Below are positions 18,320 to 30,908 of a stretch of DNA of 64,000 nt, in pieces; position 1 is the first letter of the stretch, and the number at the start of each line of letters is the position of its first letter. The stretch covers positions 62,001 to 126,000 of the forward strand of contig CANHCY010000001.1 in NCBI GenBank assembly GCA_947459295.1, written 5' to 3'. Both the position numbers and the translations under genes were made by a program. Below the pieces are notes generated by a model, which was not told the DNA's origin, made no database searches, and saw nothing but the letters and a program-made list of their open reading frames with translations. This DNA is from Chitinophagaceae bacterium (GTDB taxonomy: Bacteria > Bacteroidota > Bacteroidia > Chitinophagales > Chitinophagaceae).

Positions 18320-18733
18320 ATGATTGCAGTAGTACAAGCCACTTTTAATATTGAAATAACGGATTTATTGACGCAGGGTTGTGTGAACCAGTTAAATGCT
18401 ACGCAAACGCCTTATGTGCTGCTACAATGTCCAGGTGCTGTTGAACTTGTGGGTTATTCTAAAAAATTAATGGATACTAACAAATATGATGCAATCATTG
18501 TAATTGGGGCCGTTATTAAAGGCGATACGGATCATTACGAATATGTTTGCCAGTATGTAACAGAAGGCATGGCGGTACTATCTACACAGGCTTCTATTCC
18601 GCTCATTTTTGGTGTTTTAACTACTCAAACCGAAGAGCTTGCTTATGAGCGTGCTGCGCTTGACAAAATGAACAAAGGCAAAGACTTTGCTGATACGGCT
18701 GTATTTATGATAGACGCATACGCTAAGGCGTAA
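18320..18733 (+). CDS. ribH: 6,7-dimethyl-8-ribityllumazine synthase
   Basis: 'PGAVELVGYSKKL', 'VIGAVIKGDTDHYEYVC', 'IPLIFGVLTTQTEELAYERA'. Confidence 0.95.
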   Translation: MIAVVQATFNIEITDLLTQGCVNQLNATQTPYVLLQCPGAVELVGYSKKLMDTNKYDAIIVIGAVIKGDTDHYEYVCQYVTEGMAVLSTQASIPLIFGVLTTQTEELAYERAALDKMNKGKDFADTAVFMIDAYAKA

Positions 18734-18785
18734 CAATTACATTACATTTTGATAACATTACGGAAACAGTTAAGTAAGCATTAAT
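18731..18785 (+). promoter_or_regulatory. Pho-box-like array: five 11-bp-phased degenerate TAACA repeats
   Basis: TAACA 18731, TTACA 18742, TAACA 18753, AAACA 18764, TAAGC 18775, exactly 11 bp apart, upstream of the small protein / alkaline-phosphatase-superfamily genes. Confidence 0.65.
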
Positions 18786-18829
18786 GTGCAGCTTTACGGT
18801 GTTGGTATTTAAAAATTACCAAGCCAGAT

Positions 18830-19174
18830 ATGTACACACTACTTAATAATCAAAAGGAGCCTATTGCTTACATCGAAAACATGATGATTTTAGATGCCAC
18901 TAAGCAAAGTGTAATTGGCATCATTATCGGCGATTGTTTTTTTGGAAAAAAAGATCATGTAATTGGCAAAATATTTAAAGATCATGCTTATTTACTGAGC
19001 GGTGAAATTGTTGCATCTGTTGTTCGAGATCCAAATTATGTAAACACGGCCCCAACAAAAGAGCAAACAGCTGCTGCTTGGGAAATTTTATCGAAAATTA
19101 GTACGCATACATCCGACTGGATTGTAGAGAAAAATAAATGGGCTTCTATTTCACTTGAAGAATCGTTATCTTAG
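18830..19174 (+). CDS. Small conserved cytosolic protein of unknown function (possible '4-fold beta flower' family)
   Basis: Complete 114-aa ORF without signal peptide, immediately after the phased repeat array; family call from memory only. Confidence 0.6.
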   Translation: MYTLLNNQKEPIAYIENMMILDATKQSVIGIIIGDCFFGKKDHVIGKIFKDHAYLLSGEIVASVVRDPNYVNTAPTKEQTAAAWEILSKISTHTSDWIVEKNKWASISLEESLS

Positions 19175-19193: not shown

Positions 19194-20150
19194 ATGTTTC
19201 GAATTTTTCTAGTGATTTTATGCTCATTGCAAATTGCAGCGGCTCAAAATAAAAAAGTTTTATTTGTTATTGCAGATGGCATTCCTGCTCCCGAATTAGA
19301 AAAAGCAACCAAGCCTGGTTTTGACGCTATTATAAACAAAGGCGCCTATTTACCTTGTTATGTGGGTGGCGAAAAAGGAGGTATTACGCAGTCGCCAACT
19401 ATTTCTGCAGTAGGCTACAACTCACTACTTACGGGCACTTGGGCCAATAAGCATGGTGTGGTAGACAACGATATTAAAAACCCCAATTACAATTACCCTA
19501 CTATTTTTAAAGTATTTAAAGAGCAGTATCCATCAAAAAAAATTGGGGTATTTAGTACATGGATAGATAACCGAACTAAACTAGTGGGTGATGGACTAGC
19601 ACAAACAAATTATTTAAAGGTAGATTACCACAGAGACGGGTATGAGTTAGACACCATTCAATTTCCGCACGACAAAAACGCAACATATATTCATTTGATT
19701 GATGAAAAAGTGGTTGCAGAAGCTGCGCATATTATTAAAGACAGCGCCCCTGATTTATCTTGGGTGTATTTAGAATACACCGACGATATGGGCCACAAAT
19801 TTGGTAAAAGTCCGGAGCTTGATACGGCTATTTCAATGCTTGATAGGCAAATTCAAAAATTAATGCAGTCTGTTGCTTACCGTGAAAAAAGTTTTAATGA
19901 AGACTGGCTTGTTATCATTACTACTGATCATGGTAGAGACGCTCAAACAGGAAAAGATCATGGCGGACAGTCTGATGCAGAGCGTAATACCTGGCTAGTA
20001 ATGAACCACCGTCCAAATCATTACGCTTTTGAAAATAGAACAGCTGTTGTTGATATATTCCCAACTATTGCTACTTTTTTAAATATCAAATTATCAAAAA
20101 GTGTAGTGGATGCATTGGAGGGGGTTTCCTTATTGGATTCTAAATTTTAG
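19194..20150 (+). CDS. Secreted alkaline-phosphatase-superfamily phosphodiesterase/nucleotide pyrophosphatase-like enzyme
   Basis: Signal peptide 'MFRIFLVILCSLQIAAAQ', 'VLFVIADGIPAPELEKA', 'VYLEYTDDMGHKFG', 'IITTDHGRDAQTGKDHGGQS'; start at internal ATG 19194. Confidence 0.88.
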   Translation: MFRIFLVILCSLQIAAAQNKKVLFVIADGIPAPELEKATKPGFDAIINKGAYLPCYVGGEKGGITQSPTISAVGYNSLLTGTWANKHGVVDNDIKNPNYNYPTIFKVFKEQYPSKKIGVFSTWIDNRTKLVGDGLAQTNYLKVDYHRDGYELDTIQFPHDKNATYIHLIDEKVVAEAAHIIKDSAPDLSWVYLEYTDDMGHKFGKSPELDTAISMLDRQIQKLMQSVAYREKSFNEDWLVIITTDHGRDAQTGKDHGGQSDAERNTWLVMNHRPNHYAFENRTAVVDIFPTIATFLNIKLSKSVVDALEGVSLLDSKF

Positions 20151-20163
20151 AAATCTAAAACAC

Positions 20164-21525
20164 TTGCACAAGAAAACATTTACAGCTTCTGATTTTGGGC
20201 CTGATTTTAAATGGGGCGTAGGTATGGCCGCTCCTCAAAACGAAGGTGCTGCTTTTGAAGATGGCAAAGGTTTATCTGTATGGGATGTTTTTGCGCGTAA
20301 AAGAAATACCATTAAAGGTGGCGCGCGGCCCACTGTTGCTGCCGATTTTTACCACCGTTACAAAGACGATATTTTATTAGCCAAAGCGCTTGGCTTTTCT
20401 GTTTTTAGATTTTCTATTGCATGGAGTAGGGTATTACCAGACGGCATAGGAAAGGTTAATAAATTAGGAATCGATTTTTACCACCGCGTTATTGATGAAT
20501 GTGTTGCAAATGGTTTAGAACCTGTTGTTACTATTTACCATTGGGACTTACCCCATGCCCTTGAATTACAAGGTGGATGGACAAGTAGAGATATGATCAA
20601 GTGGTTTTCTAAATATGTAACGCTATTAACGGCGCATTATGGTAAAAAAGTAAAGCAGTGGATTGTGATGAACGAGCCTTTTGCTTTTACGGCACTTGGT
20701 TATATGATAGGCATGCATGCCCCCGGAAAAATGGGGACAACAAACGCTTTTCCAGCTATTTTTAATGCTGCTTATTGCACCGCAGAGGGTGGCAGAATTA
20801 TTAGGGAGCACTGCCCGCATGCTATTATAGGCACTAGTTTTTCAATTTCAGAAGCCAAGCCATATACAAATAGTGATAAAGATATTGCGGCTGCAAATAG
20901 AGCCGACGCACTCTTAAACCGTTTGTTTATAGAGCCTGTATTAGGTATGGGATTTCCGCAAATGGATCAATTTGATTTTTTAGATAAGTTGCATATTGCT
21001 ACCACAGCTTGGCGCTTTATTGATAAATTAAAATTTGATTTTGACTATATAGGGCTTCAAAATTATTTTTCAGTTACCATCAAGCACAATCCTTTAATCC
21101 CTTATGTTTCCGCCTCCGAAGTGAGTGCGAAGCAAAGAAAAATGCCGCATACTGCAATAGGTTGGGAGATCGATCCAAACAGCTTTTATGCAATGCTAAA
21201 AAGGTTTGGCAGTTACGAGGGCGTCAAGCAAATTATTGTAACAGAAGGAGGCGCTTGTTTTAAAGATCACTTGCATCATGGCGTGGTAAACGATCAAGAA
21301 CGCATTGATTATTTTAAAGCGTATCTAGGCGCATTATTGCAAGCAAAAAAAGAAGGCGTTAATATTGGGGGCTATTACGCCTGGACACTTACCGATAATT
21401 TTGAATGGGCTTATGGTTATAGCACAAGGTTTGGTCTTGTACACACCGATTTTGAAACACAACTCCGTACCGTAAAAAATTCGGGGTATTGGTTTAGAGA
21501 TTTTTTACAGGGCAAAGCTGTTTGA
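20164..21525 (+). CDS. GH1 beta-glucosidase-like glycoside hydrolase (exact start uncertain)
   Basis: 'FKWGVGMAAPQNEGA', 'FRFSIAWSRVLPDG', acid/base 'WIVMNEPFAF', nucleophile motif 'IIVTEGGA', 'YYAWTLTDNFEWAYGYSTRFGLVHTDF'; no ATG that avoids upstream overlap, so a TTG start is suggested. Confidence 0.93.
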   Translation: MHKKTFTASDFGPDFKWGVGMAAPQNEGAAFEDGKGLSVWDVFARKRNTIKGGARPTVAADFYHRYKDDILLAKALGFSVFRFSIAWSRVLPDGIGKVNKLGIDFYHRVIDECVANGLEPVVTIYHWDLPHALELQGGWTSRDMIKWFSKYVTLLTAHYGKKVKQWIVMNEPFAFTALGYMIGMHAPGKMGTTNAFPAIFNAAYCTAEGGRIIREHCPHAIIGTSFSISEAKPYTNSDKDIAAANRADALLNRLFIEPVLGMGFPQMDQFDFLDKLHIATTAWRFIDKLKFDFDYIGLQNYFSVTIKHNPLIPYVSASEVSAKQRKMPHTAIGWEIDPNSFYAMLKRFGSYEGVKQIIVTEGGACFKDHLHHGVVNDQERIDYFKAYLGALLQAKKEGVNIGGYYAWTLTDNFEWAYGYSTRFGLVHTDFETQLRTVKNSGYWFRDFLQGKAV

Positions 21526-22551
21526 TCGCTCAATTTCATCTACCTGATTTTTAGTTGGTTGTAAAGCTTTTGCTTTTTCAATCACCATTTGTACCAGTTG
21601 GTAGGTACTGTACTCAAGTGTTAACGGTGTTGGAGCAGGCAAGTCATACCACTTTGCAATATCAACAAAAAAGGTAGCGTGCATTTTAGCAACTACCGGA
21701 ACGCCTAACTTTTCTAGCGCCGCTGCATTGCATAACTGTTCGTATTGTCCTCTAATGGGTAAGCACATTAATTTTTTTCCTAAATAAAGTGCTTCGGCGG
21801 GGGTTTCAAATCCAGCGCCTGTAATAACGCCAGCGCTTTCAATCATGCTTTTGGTAAACCCTTCGTTTGAAATAGGCATGAACCTGATATTTTTTTCGAT
21901 GGTTTCTGTTTTCACTTCTTTGGTAAAAACTTCAAACCTAATACCAGGTGCTTTATGTAATTGTGTTGTAATAACTTTTTTAGAATAATGCGATAAATAA
22001 ACCGTTACATGCCCATTATTAACTGCTTTGGCAGCTATAATATCCGCTTTTATAACAGGGTTGAATATACCGGTATCATAGGCTTTAAAATGAAGCCCAA
22101 AATAAGCAGTTGCAGTACCATAATTTTGCAAAATCCATTCGCCAATCCATTCTTTTTTTTGAGGACGAGGAGCCGCATTACTTTTAAAGCTTGCTTGGTG
22201 CCCAAACTGAATGCTTGGTTTATTTTTTAGTTTGCATGTAAGTGAAGTGATGCATTCAAAATCGTTGATCACAATATCGTAGTCCTCTACTGGTAAAGCT
22301 TTGGCTTCTTTCCAAATTCTTTTAATGGAAAACTTTTGCCACATTTTAAAATAGTTGAGGCCGCCTCTATTTCCATAAAATAAAGAAACGCCTCTGCTTT
22401 TGTATTTTACCGGCAAACTGGTAGGTAAATGACTGTTTTCGCCACTTAAAAAAACGTCTACTTGTCCATATTGTTGTAAATAGGGTAATAATTCTACTGC
22501 TCTACTAATATGGCCATTGCCGGTTGCTTGTACTGCGTAAAATATTTTCAT
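21505..22551 (-). CDS. Glycosyltransferase (GT-B, MurG/GT28-like, 'glycosyltransferase family protein')
   Basis: 'MKIFYAVQATGNGHISRAVELLPYLQ...', 'GVITGAGFETPAEALYLGKKLMCLPIRGQYEQLCNAAAL'. Confidence 0.85.
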   Translation of the reverse strand: MKIFYAVQATGNGHISRAVELLPYLQQYGQVDVFLSGENSHLPTSLPVKYKSRGVSLFYGNRGGLNYFKMWQKFSIKRIWKEAKALPVEDYDIVINDFECITSLTCKLKNKPSIQFGHQASFKSNAAPRPQKKEWIGEWILQNYGTATAYFGLHFKAYDTGIFNPVIKADIIAAKAVNNGHVTVYLSHYSKKVITTQLHKAPGIRFEVFTKEVKTETIEKNIRFMPISNEGFTKSMIESAGVITGAGFETPAEALYLGKKLMCLPIRGQYEQLCNAAALEKLGVPVVAKMHATFFVDIAKWYDLPAPTPLTLEYSTYQLVQMVIEKAKALQPTKNQVDEIERSNSFAL

Positions 22552-23406
22552 CTATTGCGCTATTAAACTATTAAAAAATAAAGCAACGTCTTTGGTAAGT
22601 ACGTTTAGTTCTGGCAATTTATTTTCTGCACTTAAAATAGGGACTACTTTTGCAGCTTGCTCTTTTTCATTGTATTGGTGAATGTTCCATTCGCCATTTA
22701 CATATTCGAGTGACGTTAAATTTTCAATCCAATCGCCACTGTTTAAATACATCACTGATCCATGCTCATTGGTTACCATTCTTTTTTGAGGTTGATGGAT
22801 ATGACCACAAATTACATAGTCGTACCCTTGCTCAATAGCAAGCTCGGCGGCTGTTTGTTCAAAATTGCCAATCCATGACACTGCTTTTTTAACGCTATTT
22901 TTTACCTTCTTGCTAAAGCTCATTTTTTCTTTACCCATTAGTTTAAGGGCCCAGTTAATGGCGCTATTAAGCATAATTAAAAGGTCGTAACCGTGTCCAC
23001 CTAGCTTTGCAATAATTTTCGCACTTCCTTTGGTGGTGGCATCAAAAATATCACCATGAAAAATCCAGGTTTTTTTACCATCTAGTTCTAGTACCACTTT
23101 GTCGGTGAGCGTAAAGCCGCCCATTTCTAAGTCGGTGTAGCGGCGAAGGGCTTCGTCATGATTGCCCGTTATATAATACACTTTTGTGCCTTTACTTAAT
23201 AAACTAAAAATTTGCTTAATTACCTGCATATGTGCAGCCGGAAAATAATGTTTCTTAAACTGCCAGATGTCAATGATATCGCCGTTTAGGACTAATACTT
23301 TAGGTGCTACACTTTTTAAATAGGTTACAATTTCTTGGGCGTGGCAACCAAATGTGCCGAGGTGTAAATCACTAAGTACGAGAACATCAATGTCTCTTTT
23401 TTCCAT
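22552..23406 (-). CDS. Calcineurin-like metallophosphoesterase, LpxH-like / PlcP-like (candidate lipid-remodelling phospholipase C)
   Basis: 'VLVLSDLHLGTFGCHA', 'LNGDIIDIW', 'TGNHDEALRRY', 'IFHGDIFD', 'VICGHIHQPQ', 'YLNSGDWIENLTSLEY'. Confidence 0.85.
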   Translation of the reverse strand: MEKRDIDVLVLSDLHLGTFGCHAQEIVTYLKSVAPKVLVLNGDIIDIWQFKKHYFPAAHMQVIKQIFSLLSKGTKVYYITGNHDEALRRYTDLEMGGFTLTDKVVLELDGKKTWIFHGDIFDATTKGSAKIIAKLGGHGYDLLIMLNSAINWALKLMGKEKMSFSKKVKNSVKKAVSWIGNFEQTAAELAIEQGYDYVICGHIHQPQKRMVTNEHGSVMYLNSGDWIENLTSLEYVNGEWNIHQYNEKEQAAKVVPILSAENKLPELNVLTKDVALFFNSLIAQ

Positions 23407-23419
23407 TGGGTTAGTTTGT

Positions 23420-23474
23420 CAAAGTAATAACTCTAATATGAACAAATCTTTACGCCTATGTTAACAAATTGTAA
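23420..23474 (-). promoter_or_regulatory. Degenerate Pho-box-like array plus candidate -7 element for the metallophosphoesterase gene
   Basis: On minus strand TTACA-TAACA-TAAAG-TCATA at 11-bp phase (23474 to 23437), then TTACTTTG (23427-23420), one mismatch to TAnnTTTG. Confidence 0.35.
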
Positions 23475-23544: not shown

Positions 23545-25623
23545 ATGCCTAAGTATTCTTATATACCTCGAGATTTAAGTTGGTTGAGTTTTAATGGAAG
23601 GGTGTTGCAAGAAGCCAACGACCCGTCGGTACCGTTAAAAGAGCGCATCCGTTTTTTAGGAATTTTTTCAAATAATCTGGATGAATTTTTTAGAGTACGC
23701 GTTGCAACATTAAAGCGGATGATTGAATTTAAAGGCAAGGGCAAAAAGCTTGATATGCATTTAGAGCAGCATTCGCAAAGTATTTTAGATGAAATACAAA
23801 CGATTGTATTAGAACAACAAAATGAATTTAACCGCATTTGGAAAAATATTGTACGTGATTTAAAAAAAGAAAACATAACGCTGGTAGATGAAAAGCATTT
23901 ATCCAAAGAGCAACAGGTTTTTGTAAAAGATTTTTTTGATAACCAGGTGCGTGGCAATGTAATACCATTAATGGTAGAGTCCATAGATCAAATGCCTTAT
24001 TTGAGAGACAAGAGTATTTATTTAGGTATTGTAATGCGCAAAAAAAATAGTGCCTACAAAAGTAAATACGCATTAATTGAAGTGCCTGTTTCTGCAATTG
24101 GACGTTTTGTAGAACTACCTACTAAAACGGGAGGGCATCAAATTATTTTATTGGAAGATATTATTAGGTTTAGTTTGCCCGTGATATTTTCTTATTTTGA
24201 TTCTGATTATTTTGAGTCTGCCATATTTAAAATCACCAAAGACGCAGAAATCGATATTGATAATGACCTAGCAAGCAGTCTTATCGAAAAAATTGAGAAG
24301 GGATTAAAAAATAGACGAAAAGGAAAACCTGTTCGTTTTGTGTATGATAGGGAAATGGACGCTGGTTTACTCGATTATTTGATTAGGCGTTTACAACTCA
24401 CTCAAAAAAGTAATATTATACCAGGAGGCCGCATTCATAATTTTAGACATTTTATGGATTTTCCAGACCTCGTTATGGAAAAAAGTGTGCGAAAGGCTTC
24501 GCTCCTGCATCCCGAACTTAGTAAAAGCCTTCGCGTAACGGATGTAGTGTTAAAAAAAGATGTAATGCTGCATTTTCCCTACCATAGTTTTAATTCGGTG
24601 ATTGATTTACTGAGAGAAAGTGCCATGGATCCGGATGTGCTTTCTATAAAAATTACAGCCTACCGCTTAGCGCCAGCTTCTAAAGTAATCAATGCATTAA
24701 TTAATGCCGCCCGTAATGGTAAAGACGTCATGGTTATGCTTGAAGTAAAGGCTAGATTTGATGAAGAGGCCAACTTAGAATGGAAAGATGTGTTGGAACA
24801 AGAAGGTATTACTGTATTATTTGGTGTACAAAATATGAAAGTGCACGCAAAAGTTTGTGTGATTAAAAAGCGTGAAAAAAATAAAACCGTACAGTACGGT
24901 TTTGTAAGTACCGGTAATTTGCATGAAAAAACGGCGCGTGTATATGGTGATCATTGCTTATTAACTAGTAACCGCAATATCATGGCCGATATTAATAAAA
25001 TATTCCAGTTTTTGGAGTATCCCGAAAAAGGATATGGCCCACTTTTAAGTTGTAAAACGCTTGTGGTGTCACCTATTTCTATGCGGCCAACCATTGTGGG
25101 TTTAATCAATCAAGAAATTAAAAATGCTAAGGCCAAAAAGCCTGCTGCTATCACCATTAAGTTAAATTCACTCAGTGACGTGGATTTAATTAAAAAACTA
25201 AATGATGCTGCCGTTGCTGGTGTTACCATCAACATGATTGTACGTGGTATTTTTTGCGCTCATGTCGACCATAAAAAATTTAATGCAAAGCCAAGAGCTA
25301 TCAGTATTGTAGATGAGTATTTGGAGCATGCCCGTGTAATGATCTTTTGTAACGGCGGAAAAGAAAAAGTGTTTATTTCTAGTGCAGACTGGATGGTGCG
25401 TAATATCGATCACCGCGTAGAAGCAGCTGTGCCTATACTTGACCCTGCTATTAAAAAGGAATTACAAGATATTATCCACATTCAGTTGCAGGACAATGTA
25501 AAGGCGAGGGTATTAGACAGTGCTTTATTAAATAACTATGTACCTTCGGGTTCAAGAAAAAAGATACGTTCTCAAATCGAGACTTATTTATACCTCCAAC
25601 AGAAAACGAATAGTAAAAAGTGA
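23545..25623 (+). CDS. ppk1: Polyphosphate kinase 1
   Basis: 'IPRDLSWLSFNGRVLQEA', 'DLLRESAMDPDVLSIKITAYRLAPASKVINALINAARNGKDVMVMLEVKARFDEEANLEW', 'YGFVSTGNLHEKTARVYGDHCLLT'. Confidence 0.97.
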   Translation: MPKYSYIPRDLSWLSFNGRVLQEANDPSVPLKERIRFLGIFSNNLDEFFRVRVATLKRMIEFKGKGKKLDMHLEQHSQSILDEIQTIVLEQQNEFNRIWKNIVRDLKKENITLVDEKHLSKEQQVFVKDFFDNQVRGNVIPLMVESIDQMPYLRDKSIYLGIVMRKKNSAYKSKYALIEVPVSAIGRFVELPTKTGGHQIILLEDIIRFSLPVIFSYFDSDYFESAIFKITKDAEIDIDNDLASSLIEKIEKGLKNRRKGKPVRFVYDREMDAGLLDYLIRRLQLTQKSNIIPGGRIHNFRHFMDFPDLVMEKSVRKASLLHPELSKSLRVTDVVLKKDVMLHFPYHSFNSVIDLLRESAMDPDVLSIKITAYRLAPASKVINALINAARNGKDVMVMLEVKARFDEEANLEWKDVLEQEGITVLFGVQNMKVHAKVCVIKKREKNKTVQYGFVSTGNLHEKTARVYGDHCLLTSNRNIMADINKIFQFLEYPEKGYGPLLSCKTLVVSPISMRPTIVGLINQEIKNAKAKKPAAITIKLNSLSDVDLIKKLNDAAVAGVTINMIVRGIFCAHVDHKKFNAKPRAISIVDEYLEHARVMIFCNGGKEKVFISSADWMVRNIDHRVEAAVPILDPAIKKELQDIIHIQLQDNVKARVLDSALLNNYVPSGSRKKIRSQIETYLYLQQKTNSKK

Positions 25624-26513
25624 AGTTAGCCGCCATTGATATTGGGAGTAATGCCGCCCGACTATTAATTAGTGAAGTTACCAAACAGCCAAAGCAGGAT
25701 CCTGTATTTAATAAAATTAATTTAGTACGCGTGCCGCTCAGACTAGGGTTTGACGTCTTTGAAACTGGAGAAATATCTAAGCCAAAGGTTAAGATGCTGA
25801 TGCAAACTTTAAAAGCCTATCAGCATTTATTGGAAGCCTATCAAATTAAACATGTGTATGCTTGTGCTACAAGTGCTATGCGGGATGCTAGAAACAGCAA
25901 AGACATCATTAGAAAGGTAAAGCTTGAAACGGGAATCGAAATTAAAGTGATATCTGGTCAAGAGGAGGCCTCTTTTATTTATGAAAACCATGTGGCTGAA
26001 AATTTAGATTCGGACCACTCATATTTATACATTGACGTGGGTGGCGGTAGCACTGAGCTTACTTTTTTTGCAAATGGTGCACTTGTTTCTAAAGAGTCTT
26101 TTAATATTGGCACCATTCGGATCTTAAAAGACCAAATACAGGATGAGACTTGGGAAGATCTCAAGGATTACGTTAAAAAGAACATCAAAAGTGCCCTTCC
26201 GTCGATTGCTATTGGAAGTGGTGGAAATATTACAAAAATATTATCTATGAGTAAGACCAAAGAAGGTAAACCCCTTAGTTTGGAGCTGCTCAAAGACTAC
26301 TATAAAGAGCTTTCTATTGTTAGCTTAGCGGACCGTATGAATTTATACGGACTTAAAGAAGATCGGGCAGATGTTATTGTACCTGCGTTACTTATTTATA
26401 TTCAGGTTATGAAATGGGCCAATATTGACGCTATTTATGTGCCTAAAATTGGCCTTGTAGATGGCCTTATACACCACCTGTATGATCAGGTTGGTAACAT
26501 TGCGGTAACATAG
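25620..26513 (+). CDS. ppx: Ppx/GppA phosphatase family (exopolyphosphatase-like); GTG start overlapping ppk1
   Basis: 'LAAIDIGSNAARLLISEV', 'YACATSAMRDARN', 'VISGQEEASFIYENHV', 'YIDVGGGSTELTFF', 'SFNIGTIRIL'. Confidence 0.92.
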   Translation: MKLAAIDIGSNAARLLISEVTKQPKQDPVFNKINLVRVPLRLGFDVFETGEISKPKVKMLMQTLKAYQHLLEAYQIKHVYACATSAMRDARNSKDIIRKVKLETGIEIKVISGQEEASFIYENHVAENLDSDHSYLYIDVGGGSTELTFFANGALVSKESFNIGTIRILKDQIQDETWEDLKDYVKKNIKSALPSIAIGSGGNITKILSMSKTKEGKPLSLELLKDYYKELSIVSLADRMNLYGLKEDRADVIVPALLIYIQVMKWANIDAIYVPKIGLVDGLIHHLYDQVGNIAVT

Positions 26514-26560
26514 AGGTAACATTCTGATAACACAGGCGTAACAATGCCGTAACACGCCAA
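26495..26560 (+). promoter_or_regulatory. Pho-box-like array: six perfect TAACA repeats at exact 11-bp period
   Basis: TAACA at 26495, 26506, 26517, 26528, 26539, 26550; first two lie in the 3' end of ppx. Confidence 0.82.
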
Positions 26561-26563
26561 AAG

Positions 26564-26571
26564 TAGTTTTG
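26564..26571 (+). promoter_or_regulatory. Candidate -7 promoter element TAGTTTTG for the TonB-receptor gene
   Basis: Exact TAnnTTTG 9 bp after the last TAACA of the array and 20 bp before the GTG start. Confidence 0.6.
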
Positions 26572-26591: not shown

Positions 26592-29405
26592 GTGAAGCAA
26601 TTATTATCTATCGTTTTTTTACTTGTAATTAGTAGTTCATTATTTGCTCAAAAATCTAGGATTGTTGGTAAGGTCACCAATAGCAAAAATGAAGGTTTGG
26701 CAAGTGTGACCGTTAAACTATCTGGCGCTGCAACTGCCATGACCAGAACAGATGTGGATGGCCGTTTTTCTTTTGTTGTAGAAGCTCAAAAAAAATATTC
26801 ACTTACATTAAGTTACGTAGGTTACGAAGAAAAAACAATTGACGAAGTAGCTGTTGCAAAAGCTGGTGAGGAAGAAACAGTAAATATCATTTTAAATGAA
26901 GGTGGTAAAGTATTAACGGATGTAGCCGTAAAAACTACGGCTAGAACTGCTACCGCAAAAGGTGAAACAGTAAATGCGCTTATTACTTTCCAAAAAAATA
27001 CGAATACGGTAGCATCTGTAATTTCTGGTGAAGCGATTAAGCGTTCTCCAGATAAAAATACTGGTGAAGTATTAAAGCGTACACCTGGTGCAAGTATTCA
27101 AGAAGGTAAATTTTTGATTGTAAGAGGACTTGCAGAGCGTTACAATTTGGCACTTTTAAATGGAGTGCAATTAGGTAGCACCGAGCCTGACCGAAAAGCT
27201 TTCTCTTTTGATTTGATTCCGGCCAACATGATTGACAATATCGTTATCAATAAAGCGTTTGTTCCTGAGCTTCCGGGTGAGTGGGCAGGTGGTTTAATTC
27301 AGGTAAACACAAAAGATATTCCAACTAAAAACTTTTTTAATATTCAAATAGGTTCTGGTTTTAATAACCAGGCTGTGCAGGGTAATTTTTACGAGCACAA
27401 AGGTGGTAAAACAGATTATTTAGGTATTGATGACGGTACACGTTCTCTACCTGCTACCTACACCACCAAGTCTAAATTTGACGCCTTGCCAAATGCCGAC
27501 AAAACATATATTGGATCTACCATGCAAAATAGCTGGAACCCAATTGCTGCAAGTGGATTAACGCGTTTAAATGGTCAGTTTCAGATGAGTGCTGGTTTCA
27601 CAAAAGATTTAAAAGGCACTAAAAAAATTGCAGGTATTTTTGCAATGAACTACAACAAATCTGCGCGTCACATGATTGGTACCAACAGTGGTTTTAACTT
27701 TGTTGGAGACGGATCATACACAACTGATTTTGATTTTGATGATAATAGATATAGTAACGATTTATTATGGGGTGGACTTGGTAATGTTACATTCCAACTT
27801 AACAATAACAATAAAATTTCTGCAAAAACATTATTCAATATCAATGCTACCGATTTTACTTCTTTAAGAACGGGAATTGAGGGTAACGGTAATCAGTTTT
27901 TTGATAGCACCAGAGGTTACGAATATGGTTTTAAGCAAAACACTTTTTGGAACTCTCAAATTACGGGTGAGCACAATGTAAAGCCAAATGTTTTAAAGCT
28001 AAAATGGTATGGTTCATTTACAATTTTGGATAGCTATACTCCTGATCAGCGCAGATTATACTACTTAAAAGATAACAGTGCGCGAACTAATCCTTACACT
28101 GCGCTTTTGTCAAACGTATTATCACAAAAAAGCGGTAACCGTTTATATCAAAACCTAAATGATTATATATATATTGGTGGTGCTGATTTAGCCTATACAT
28201 TTAGCGCACTTGGTAGTAAGCAAACCCTTAAAGGTGGCTATTTATTCCAAGTAAAAGATCGTTTGTTTGATGCTAAACCATTCTCTATTTATTTACCAAG
28301 AGATAATGCTGCAATTCGTTTACAAGATCCGTCTTCAATTTTTGCGCCTAGCAACTTTGGTAGAGGTGAAGTGAATAGTAATTTATTAGCATTCGACGCT
28401 ATTAAAGGCAATATTTACAGATACTTGGCTAATACTATTTTAAATGCAGGGTATGTTCAAATGGACAACCAGCTTGGCAATAAATTACGTGTTATTTGGG
28501 GATTACGTGTAGAAGATTATGATCAATTAATTGGAAGTGTTTATAAATCAGATCCGCGTCATAACTATACAAGGGTTACCGATTTCTTACCAGGTTTAAA
28601 CGCTACATACAAGCTTAATAATTTAACCAACTTACGTTTATCTGCATCTCAAACAGTGGTAAGACCAGAGTTTAGAGAGCTTGCAACCTTCCAGTATTAC
28701 GATTTCGATTTAAATGCTGCAGTGCAAGGGCTTCCAACACTTGAGCGTACAAAAATTACAAATTTAGATTTACGATATGAATTGTATCCAGCTTCTGGTG
28801 AAGTTATTACAGTAGGCGCATTTTATAAATATTTTGATAAGCCTATCGAAATGGTGTACAATTTTGGTGTGGGTGGCTCTAGTACTTTCAATTTTGCAAA
28901 CCCTAATAGTGCCAATGCATATGGTGTTGAGTTTGAAATCAGAAAGAAATTAGATTTTTCTCAAACATTCAAAAACTTCACCCTACAAGCCAATGGTTCA
29001 TACATTAGCAGTAGGGTACAAGACGGCAATTTATTATTGGATCGTCCATTACAAGGTCAGTCTCCTTATTTGATTAACTTTTCTGCTCTTTATGATTTGC
29101 CTGAAAAAGGGTTCAGTGCAACTTTACTTTTCAATCAAATTGGGCGTCGTGTAACATTTGTAGGAAGTTTAGATCAGCCAGATATTTATGAATCATCTCG
29201 CCCTGTATTTGATTTTCAAGTAAGCAAAAAATTTGCGAACAACAAAGCAGAGATAAGACTTAACATTCAAGATATTTTAAACCGCACACTTTATTTCTAC
29301 CAAAATCCGGATGGCAATGCAAGGCTAGATAAAGCGAATGATCCATTCCGTTTAAGTAGAACCACTGGTACCAACTATGGCGTTAGCTTTTCTTATTCTT
29401 TATAA
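26592..29405 (+). CDS. TonB-dependent outer membrane receptor with N-terminal carboxypeptidase-regulatory-like domain
   Basis: Signal peptide, 'IVGKVTNSKNEGLASVTVKLSG...TDVDGRFSF', plug 'FLIVRGLAERYNLALLNGVQLGSTEPDRKAFSFDLIPANMIDNIVI', barrel C-terminus 'YGVSFSYSL'. Confidence 0.95.
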   Translation: MKQLLSIVFLLVISSSLFAQKSRIVGKVTNSKNEGLASVTVKLSGAATAMTRTDVDGRFSFVVEAQKKYSLTLSYVGYEEKTIDEVAVAKAGEEETVNIILNEGGKVLTDVAVKTTARTATAKGETVNALITFQKNTNTVASVISGEAIKRSPDKNTGEVLKRTPGASIQEGKFLIVRGLAERYNLALLNGVQLGSTEPDRKAFSFDLIPANMIDNIVINKAFVPELPGEWAGGLIQVNTKDIPTKNFFNIQIGSGFNNQAVQGNFYEHKGGKTDYLGIDDGTRSLPATYTTKSKFDALPNADKTYIGSTMQNSWNPIAASGLTRLNGQFQMSAGFTKDLKGTKKIAGIFAMNYNKSARHMIGTNSGFNFVGDGSYTTDFDFDDNRYSNDLLWGGLGNVTFQLNNNNKISAKTLFNINATDFTSLRTGIEGNGNQFFDSTRGYEYGFKQNTFWNSQITGEHNVKPNVLKLKWYGSFTILDSYTPDQRRLYYLKDNSARTNPYTALLSNVLSQKSGNRLYQNLNDYIYIGGADLAYTFSALGSKQTLKGGYLFQVKDRLFDAKPFSIYLPRDNAAIRLQDPSSIFAPSNFGRGEVNSNLLAFDAIKGNIYRYLANTILNAGYVQMDNQLGNKLRVIWGLRVEDYDQLIGSVYKSDPRHNYTRVTDFLPGLNATYKLNNLTNLRLSASQTVVRPEFRELATFQYYDFDLNAAVQGLPTLERTKITNLDLRYELYPASGEVITVGAFYKYFDKPIEMVYNFGVGGSSTFNFANPNSANAYGVEFEIRKKLDFSQTFKNFTLQANGSYISSRVQDGNLLLDRPLQGQSPYLINFSALYDLPEKGFSATLLFNQIGRRVTFVGSLDQPDIYESSRPVFDFQVSKKFANNKAEIRLNIQDILNRTLYFYQNPDGNARLDKANDPFRLSRTTGTNYGVSFSYSL

Positions 29406-29444: not shown

Positions 29445-30908
29445 ATGAAAAAATCGATTTTGTTAGCAGCTGCCTTTGTTGCACTTATTGCTACAAGTTG
29501 TAGAAAAATTGAAATGGATGGTGGAACAAACGTTATCCAACAACCTACAACACCTGGTGTTCAAACTATTACTTTAAAAGGCCGTATCGCTAAGGATACT
29601 GTTTTAAGAGAAGGTAATAATTATATTTTAAGTGGAATTGTTTATATCGTAAATAATGCTAAAATAACTATTCAGCCTGGTGTTACCGTAAAAGCTGACT
29701 ACACAGGCGCTAATGTGGCTGCACTTGTTATTACGCGTGGTGCTCAAATTATTGCAGATGGTACGCAAGAAAAGCCAATTGTATTCACATCAAATTCTCC
29801 AACTCCACGTTCTGGTGACTGGGGTGGTATTGTAATTTTAGGTAAAGCAAGTATTAATAGCACGTTTACTGGCGTTGGTGGTGGCGCAGGCACACTTCAA
29901 GTAGAAGGTGGTATCGATAACTCATTTGGTGATGGTATCGCTGGTGGTGGTGCTACTCCAAACGATGATGATAACTCAGGTATTTTGCGCTATGTAAGAA
30001 TTGAATATGCAGGTTATGCGTATCAGCCTGACAAAGAAATTAACAGCTTGACAATGGCTGCTGTAGGTAGAGGTACAGTTATTGATTTTGTTCAGGTTAC
30101 CTATGGTAAAGACGATGCGTTTGAGTGGTTTGGGGGTACTGTAAACTGTAAGCACTTGATTGCCTACAAAACACAGGATGATGATTTTGATGCAGATAAT
30201 GGTTACAGCGGTAAAGTACAATTTGGAATTGTATTGAGAGATTCTACTATTGCGGATATCTCCCGTTCAGAAGCGTTTGAGTGTGATAACGATCCAAGTG
30301 GTTCTATTAACAGGCCTCAAACTACGGCTGTATTCTCAAACATCACTGTGGTAGGTCCAAGAGCCACACTTGCTAACAAGGGTAATAGTTTATACCTTGG
30401 TGCAGCTCATTTAAGAAGAAATACTGGTGTTTCTATATTTAACTCCGTGTTTTTAGGCTGGCCTGCTGGTTTAATTATTGATGCGAGAAATGGTCGTGCA
30501 CAAGAATTAAACATTTTGGATAGTACAGTACGTTTTAAAAATAATATTATTGCTGGTTGCGGTCCTGAAACAGGAAGTGATAATTCATCTTATACTTTTA
30601 TTGCTTCTACTGCTAACGTAAGTTTATGGAACACAGATTCTCTAAGAAATAGAATGAGTAACACTGCTTTCGGAAATAGAGTACTAGCTACTGTTGGTGA
30701 AACAAGAATCATTGCACCATTTAGTTACAGTGCACCTGACTTTATTCCTTTTGGTGGATCTAATGGTAACCAAGACGTGTTAAGAGGCGCTAGCTTCTCA
30801 GATCCTAAATTGGTTGGTTTTACAACTGTACCATTTAGAGGTGCTTGTGACGCTGCTGGGTTTGATGCAAACTGGTGGAAGGGTTGGACTAGATTTATCA
30901 ATCAATAA
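29445..30908 (+). CDS. Beta-helix-like surface lipoprotein paired with the TonB receptor
   Basis: Lipobox 'LIATSCRK'; repeated hydrophobic strands 'ITIQPGVTVKADYTGANVAALVITRGAQIIADGTQEKPIVFTS...GDWGGIVILG'. Confidence 0.8.
   Translation: MKKSILLAAAFVALIATSCRKIEMDGGTNVIQQPTTPGVQTITLKGRIAKDTVLREGNNYILSGIVYIVNNAKITIQPGVTVKADYTGANVAALVITRGAQIIADGTQEKPIVFTSNSPTPRSGDWGGIVILGKASINSTFTGVGGGAGTLQVEGGIDNSFGDGIAGGGATPNDDDNSGILRYVRIEYAGYAYQPDKEINSLTMAAVGRGTVIDFVQVTYGKDDAFEWFGGTVNCKHLIAYKTQDDDFDADNGYSGKVQFGIVLRDSTIADISRSEAFECDNDPSGSINRPQTTAVFSNITVVGPRATLANKGNSLYLGAAHLRRNTGVSIFNSVFLGWPAGLIIDARNGRAQELNILDSTVRFKNNIIAGCGPETGSDNSSYTFIASTANVSLWNTDSLRNRMSNTAFGNRVLATVGETRIIAPFSYSAPDFIPFGGSNGNQDVLRGASFSDPKLVGFTTVPFRGACDAAGFDANWWKGWTRFINQ

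Follow-up and report, generated by a model that had tools for sequence, protein, structure and literature searches.

The DNA that follows ribH, the lumazine synthase gene at 18320-18733 of the plus strand (PF00885, by Pfam and sequence), holds a short run of TAACA-like repeats ahead of a small-protein gene. The locus raises the question of whether this run is a promoter that responds to phosphate starvation and, if so, which gene it serves. We addressed this question in the window (the whole 64-kb stretch of DNA that was analysed), in the rest of the genome and in related genomes. Comparison of sequences leads us to read 18731-18796 as a Bacteroidota-type Pho box, that is, a phosphate-starvation promoter, with a probability of roughly three in four.

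A phased repeat array and its predicted core promoter element

The repeats comprise five 11-bp units (TAACA, TTACA, TAACA, AAACA and TAAGC; 18731-18785, plus strand), which read TAACAATTACA TTACATTTTGA TAACATTACGG AAACAGTTAAG TAAGCATTAAT and which the sequence and the matrix scores mark as a predicted Pho box. All five stand in register, as do the tandem direct repeats of a Pho box; two match TAACA exactly and two with one mismatch, and the first three bases of the array are the TAA stop codon of ribH. A degenerate -7 box, CAGCTTTA (18789-18796, plus strand; consensus TAnnTTTG), recognized by sequence and model, begins 14 bp beyond 18775, where the last unit starts. The sigma-A element that has been mapped in Flavobacterium has this same TAnnTTTG consensus (PMC9723704). 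As a reference we used the array at 26495-26571 of the plus strand, where six TAACA units (26495-26560) are followed by a perfect -7 box, TAGTTTTG (26564-26571); its last unit starts at 26550 and its box at 26564, again 14 bp apart, and relatives have the same offset. The initial annotation had described both the 11-bp register at 18731 and the offset shared with the 26.5-kb array, and both are present as it described them. The site thus keeps the fixed core-promoter position of a Pho box, with a -7 box that is itself degenerate.

TAACA-like words occur frequently in AT-rich DNA such as this intergenic region (31% GC), so that chance similarity had to be weighed. A first matrix, derived solely from the six units of the 26.5-kb array, ranked 18731 first outside the training array when both strands of the window were scanned with three or four units. 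A promoter model of four units, a 3-bp spacer and a -7 box was trained on 54 loci, all from other genomes; the 18731 site, the porin site on contig C9 and the pst promoters (see below) lay outside the training set, and the training loci were aligned by the model itself, which makes its consensus partly self-reinforcing. With this model, the window ranking was 26517 (44.7 bits), 23420 on the minus strand (35.4 bits) and 18731 (17.8 bits), the third independent site in the 64 kb; the next unrelated site reached 10.7 bits. Shuffled AT-rich sequence, the control suggested by the initial annotation, separated well from the site, with a maximum of 7.9 bits in 200 kb against 17.8, and shuffled local sequence never reached the 18731 score. 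The exact tail was 2.4-2.7e-8 per position under window or local base composition, corresponding to a chance expectation of about 0.003 such sites per 64-kb window. With the orientation of the array and its downstream gene also as expected, chance is a very improbable explanation.

The signal at 18731 is carried by units 1-3 and the exact phase. Unit 4 (AAACA) is weak (+0.8 bits), unit 5 (TAAGC) is penalized by the model (-4.1 bits), and the -7 box scores 4.3 bits, compared with 8.2 and 9.3 bits at the two strong window sites. With degeneracy at units 4 and 5 and in the -7 box, the promoter is probably weak. On the plus strand at this site, no sigma-70-type promoter, terminator or Rfam element was found. 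The stability of an AT-rich hairpin at 18802-18822 is nothing out of the ordinary (z -1.0).

Phosphate genes behind related arrays

The second-ranked window site was absent from the initial annotation, and its score is twice that of 18731. It consists of TTACA, TAACA, TAAAG and TCATA followed by a -7 box, TTACTTTG (23427-23420), at 23420-23474 of the minus strand, and it precedes a gene pair on that strand: plcP, for a PlcP-like phosphoesterase of lipid remodelling (22552-23406; PF00149/PF12850, with arrays in relatives), and downstream of it a glycosyltransferase gene (21505-22551; profile matches to PF13528). The pairing of PlcP with a glycosyltransferase is known from lipid remodelling in bacteria starved of phosphate (PMC4796936). 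Between this array and the TonB-dependent receptor gene of the 26.5-kb array (26592-29405, plus strand; carboxypeptidase-regulatory-like domain by Pfam, arrays at orthologues) sit the polyphosphate kinase gene ppk (23545-25623, plus strand; TIGR03705 over cut-off) and a Ppx/GppA-family exopolyphosphatase gene (25620-26513, plus strand; PF02541 by Pfam). The 487-aa protein encoded behind the receptor (29445-30908) gave no Pfam or NCBIfam match.

Beyond the window, pattern searches covered a genome of 2.3 Mb that is 83% complete. The exact three-unit pattern was confined to the 26.5-kb array and C9:18472, and the 18731 site was recovered with one mismatch to it. When a relaxed pattern was searched and up to one mismatch allowed, the only perfect sites were the TonB-receptor and porin promoters, and 18731 had too many mismatches to be matched. 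The C9 site is the best in the genome (49.2 bits), and its TTTG box likewise stands at the 14-bp offset; it precedes the gene of a phosphate-selective porin (PF07396), divergent from PhoU_div (DUF47) and PHO4 permease genes. The best match to TIGR02136 (PstS) in this genome (G000, C65:2973-3797) is weak, at 60.8 bits against a cut-off of 206.6. Either the PHO4 permease beside the porin may serve this organism in its place, or pstS may lie in the missing part of the assembly. The presence of gldM and of a PorP/SprF protein, together with the -7 box, indicates that the genome belongs to Bacteroidota.

Comparative evidence relates these arrays to phosphate. Among family genomes, an upstream array was found at 26 of 30 TonB-receptor orthologues and 22 of 30 plcP orthologues, each count including one locus from this genome, compared with 1/30 on the reverse strand in both cases and 1.4% of random windows; the spacing to the -7 box is fixed in both sets. 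Across 198 genomes, the bare DNA pattern was found at 42 places and its reverse at 18 (overlapping units counted separately). Among the genes behind the blind matches to the forward pattern are those for TonB receptors, OMP_b-brl_4 proteins and one PlcP. In three genomes the matches precede an outer-membrane protein gene followed by the gene for PstS and further pst-phoU genes, the arrays scoring 39.7 (L309), 33.8 (L310) and 40.0 bits (L311). PstS is over the TIGR00975 cut-off in all three. L311 has PstS, PstC, PstA, PstB and PhoU all over curated cut-offs, with PhoR- and PhoB-like genes adjoining, and L310 carries PhoU as well as a plcP-glycosyltransferase pair with its own array (40.2 bits). 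The same array with fixed -7 spacing therefore precedes plcP, the TonB-receptor gene and pstS-phoU operons, and for this reason we interpret it as a Pho box. Taken with the phosphate porin, these are core Pho genes, and the shared architecture lends support to the Pho-regulon promoter that the initial annotation had predicted at 18731.

Two further observations concern the pst operons. In relatives, putative outer-membrane proteins of about 430-450 aa are encoded between array and pstS (by the first gene downstream in L112, L123, L124 and L139), and the three members of this family that were scanned had no Pfam match. TIGR02136 was discarded as a route to PstS, as it retrieved mostly other binding proteins (arrays at 2/30); it was the blind matches that led to genuine pst operons.

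The regulator of the array is presumably the PhoB of a PhoB/PhoR-like pair encoded elsewhere in the genome, on contig C22. Against TIGR02154 this PhoB reaches 226 bits, short of the equivalog cut-off (296); the PhoB proteins encoded next to pst in relatives also fall short of it. Upstream of this genome's phoB (L109:3762-3860, minus strand) we observed two in-phase units, TAACA and TAATA, and a perfect -7 box, TAAATTTG, which could allow autoregulation; in this region the strict model did not rise above 6 bits. The genome encodes at least two further members of the OmpR/PhoB response-regulator family, and one of them, for example an envelope-stress or RprY-like regulator, might use the array to control outer-membrane genes, with the phosphate link being secondary. 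Most blind matches do precede TonB-receptor or outer-membrane protein genes, and PhoP of Riemerella anatipestifer, whose motif TTTAACA is similar, controls many non-phosphate genes (PMC9603813). We nevertheless consider this improbable, given that the shared targets (pst-phoU, plcP-glycosyltransferase, the phosphate-selective porin and a gene that follows phoBR) constitute a Pho regulon rather than a general set of envelope genes. For 18731 itself, we infer both the identity of the regulator and the phosphate signal by analogy with these loci.

The small protein and the phosphatase downstream

The first gene behind the 18731 array encodes a 114-aa, weakly beta-flower-like protein (18830-19174, plus strand), and homologue arrays and gene neighbours suggest that it is the likely direct target. 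By unit score, 10 of 26 homologues have arrays including this one (9/25 outside this genome; 1/26 on the reverse strand), and 4/26 homologue promoters reach 5 bits with the strict model. Homologues lie directly behind plcP-glycosyltransferase in three genomes (L017-L019), behind phoBR in two (L025 and L031, whose PhoB is 85-86% identical to that of this genome) and, in one case, near ppk; in G078, the plcP promoter of an operon that contains a homologue carries an array (L153). The fold of the protein is predicted with confidence (pLDDT 94.6), and a search with it returned no PDB match. Its resemblance to the beta-flower family PF21784 is a resemblance only (13.5 bits, below the cut-off of 25); weak beta-flower matches recur in 21 of 21 relatives (best E 1e-7), below family cut-offs. 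We further suggest, tentatively and as clearly less than an even chance, that the family is an unrecognised member of the Pho regulon which either acts with PlcP and the glycosyltransferase in the exchange of phospholipid for glycolipid or feeds back on PhoBR, the arrays being a Pho box with a promoter geometry of the group's own.

Two congeneric homologues (L016 and L023) have no array, which leads to the possibility that 18731 is a decayed Pho box, an ancestral promoter no longer regulated, with 18830 transcribed mainly by read-through from the riboflavin genes. The negative score of unit 5 and the low score of the -7 box would agree with decay, and ribH ends only 96 bp upstream of 18830 with no plus-strand terminator-like site between them. 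All five units nevertheless keep their phase, orientation and offset, and their summed score greatly exceeds what chance would give. Moreover, TTTA in place of TTTG was also seen at conserved promoters of relatives (L060 and L152), so this substitution need not signify decay. Such a loss of regulation is in our judgement unlikely, and a functional, if weak, Pho box remains the preferred reading.

The second gene, 19 bp after the first, encodes a secreted protein of the phosphodiesterase/alkaline-phosphatase superfamily (19194-20150, plus strand; PF01663 by Pfam). The initial annotation had taken this enzyme as fitting a Pho-regulon promoter. That argument is not supported, since none of 30 family members in relatives has an upstream array; the phosphatase is not a conserved Pho target and was ruled out as evidence for the promoter, the likelier conserved target being the small protein. 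Judging from the 19-bp spacing only, the phosphatase is probably co-transcribed with the small protein by read-through. At 318 aa it is shorter than most members of its family (about 390-411 aa), as is that of relative L072, and it may have lost its C-terminal part.

Proposed mechanism and comparison with known systems

Regulators of the OmpR/PhoB family bind direct repeats. PhoP of Mycobacterium tuberculosis requires exactly 4 bp between its 7-bp direct-repeat motifs, which gives a period of 11 bp, and it binds arrays of three or four motifs with higher affinity than pairs (PMC4832192). By analogy, one PhoB-like response regulator would occupy each 11-bp unit here (T-A/C-A-C/T-A followed by 6 bp), so that three to six units would carry several PhoB~P in a head-to-tail stack, and the promoter-proximal PhoB~P would touch RNA polymerase at the TAnnTTTG -7 box, 14 bp past the last unit start. 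A PhoB stack that ends 14 bp before the -7 box fits an activator in contact with RNA polymerase. When phosphate is scarce, 18731-18796 would switch on the 18830 gene and then, probably by read-through, the phosphatase; both the transcription start and the co-transcription are what we infer for this site. With degenerate proximal units and a degenerate -7 box, the response may be weaker or later than at the plcP and TonB-receptor promoters.

A TAACA array at a fixed distance from TAnnTTTG provides a testable site model, one that predicts phosphate-starvation genes from sequence alone. At this locus it points to the small protein, which is uncharacterised and has links to lipid remodelling and phoBR, as a probable Pho member.

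In Escherichia coli, the PhoB Pho box of pstS and phoA consists of 11-bp-period direct repeats of the unit TGTCA that replace the -35 region at a fixed distance from a core promoter element, and it controls pst-phoU and other phosphate genes. The arrays described here share the 11-bp direct repeats, the fixed core distance and pst-phoU among other phosphate targets. They differ in having three to six units of TAACA or TAATA instead of TGTCA, and in a core element that is the Bacteroidota TAnnTTTG, 14 bp after the last unit start.

Our literature search found no described Pho-box array for Bacteroidota, though PhoB is known there. In Bacteroides fragilis, a member of the same phylum, the pst promoter is a direct target of PhoB (BF1576), the pst genes are phoB-dependent, and ppk and phosphate permease genes respond, a likeness in regulator and target; unlike our arrays, this regulon is presented without a Pho-box sequence in the passages found (PMC3547664). 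The Riemerella PhoP, a PhoB-like regulator from the same phylum, has an ArcA-like motif by DAP-seq (583 peaks) whose most conserved bases, TTTAACA, contain the TAACA unit, but it was not reported as an 11-bp array at a fixed -7 distance, and its targets are mostly non-phosphate (PMC9603813).

Gene content agrees with that of the regulon of Flavobacterium johnsoniae, which at low phosphate induces PlcP, a glycosyltransferase, TonB-dependent transporters and PhoB, but not OprP (PMC8115612). Ten Flavobacterium genomes near F. johnsoniae, which was itself not among them, had no exact three-unit array, and at plcP these relatives gave negative model scores and only faint in-phase units. We therefore abandoned the attempt to tie the array to the measured induction through these relatives, and the low-phosphate data support the gene content of the regulon, not the array motif. 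Set beside these systems, 18731 is probably a Pho-box promoter of rather low strength that adds a site to a known class, with a sequence and spacing specific to its group.
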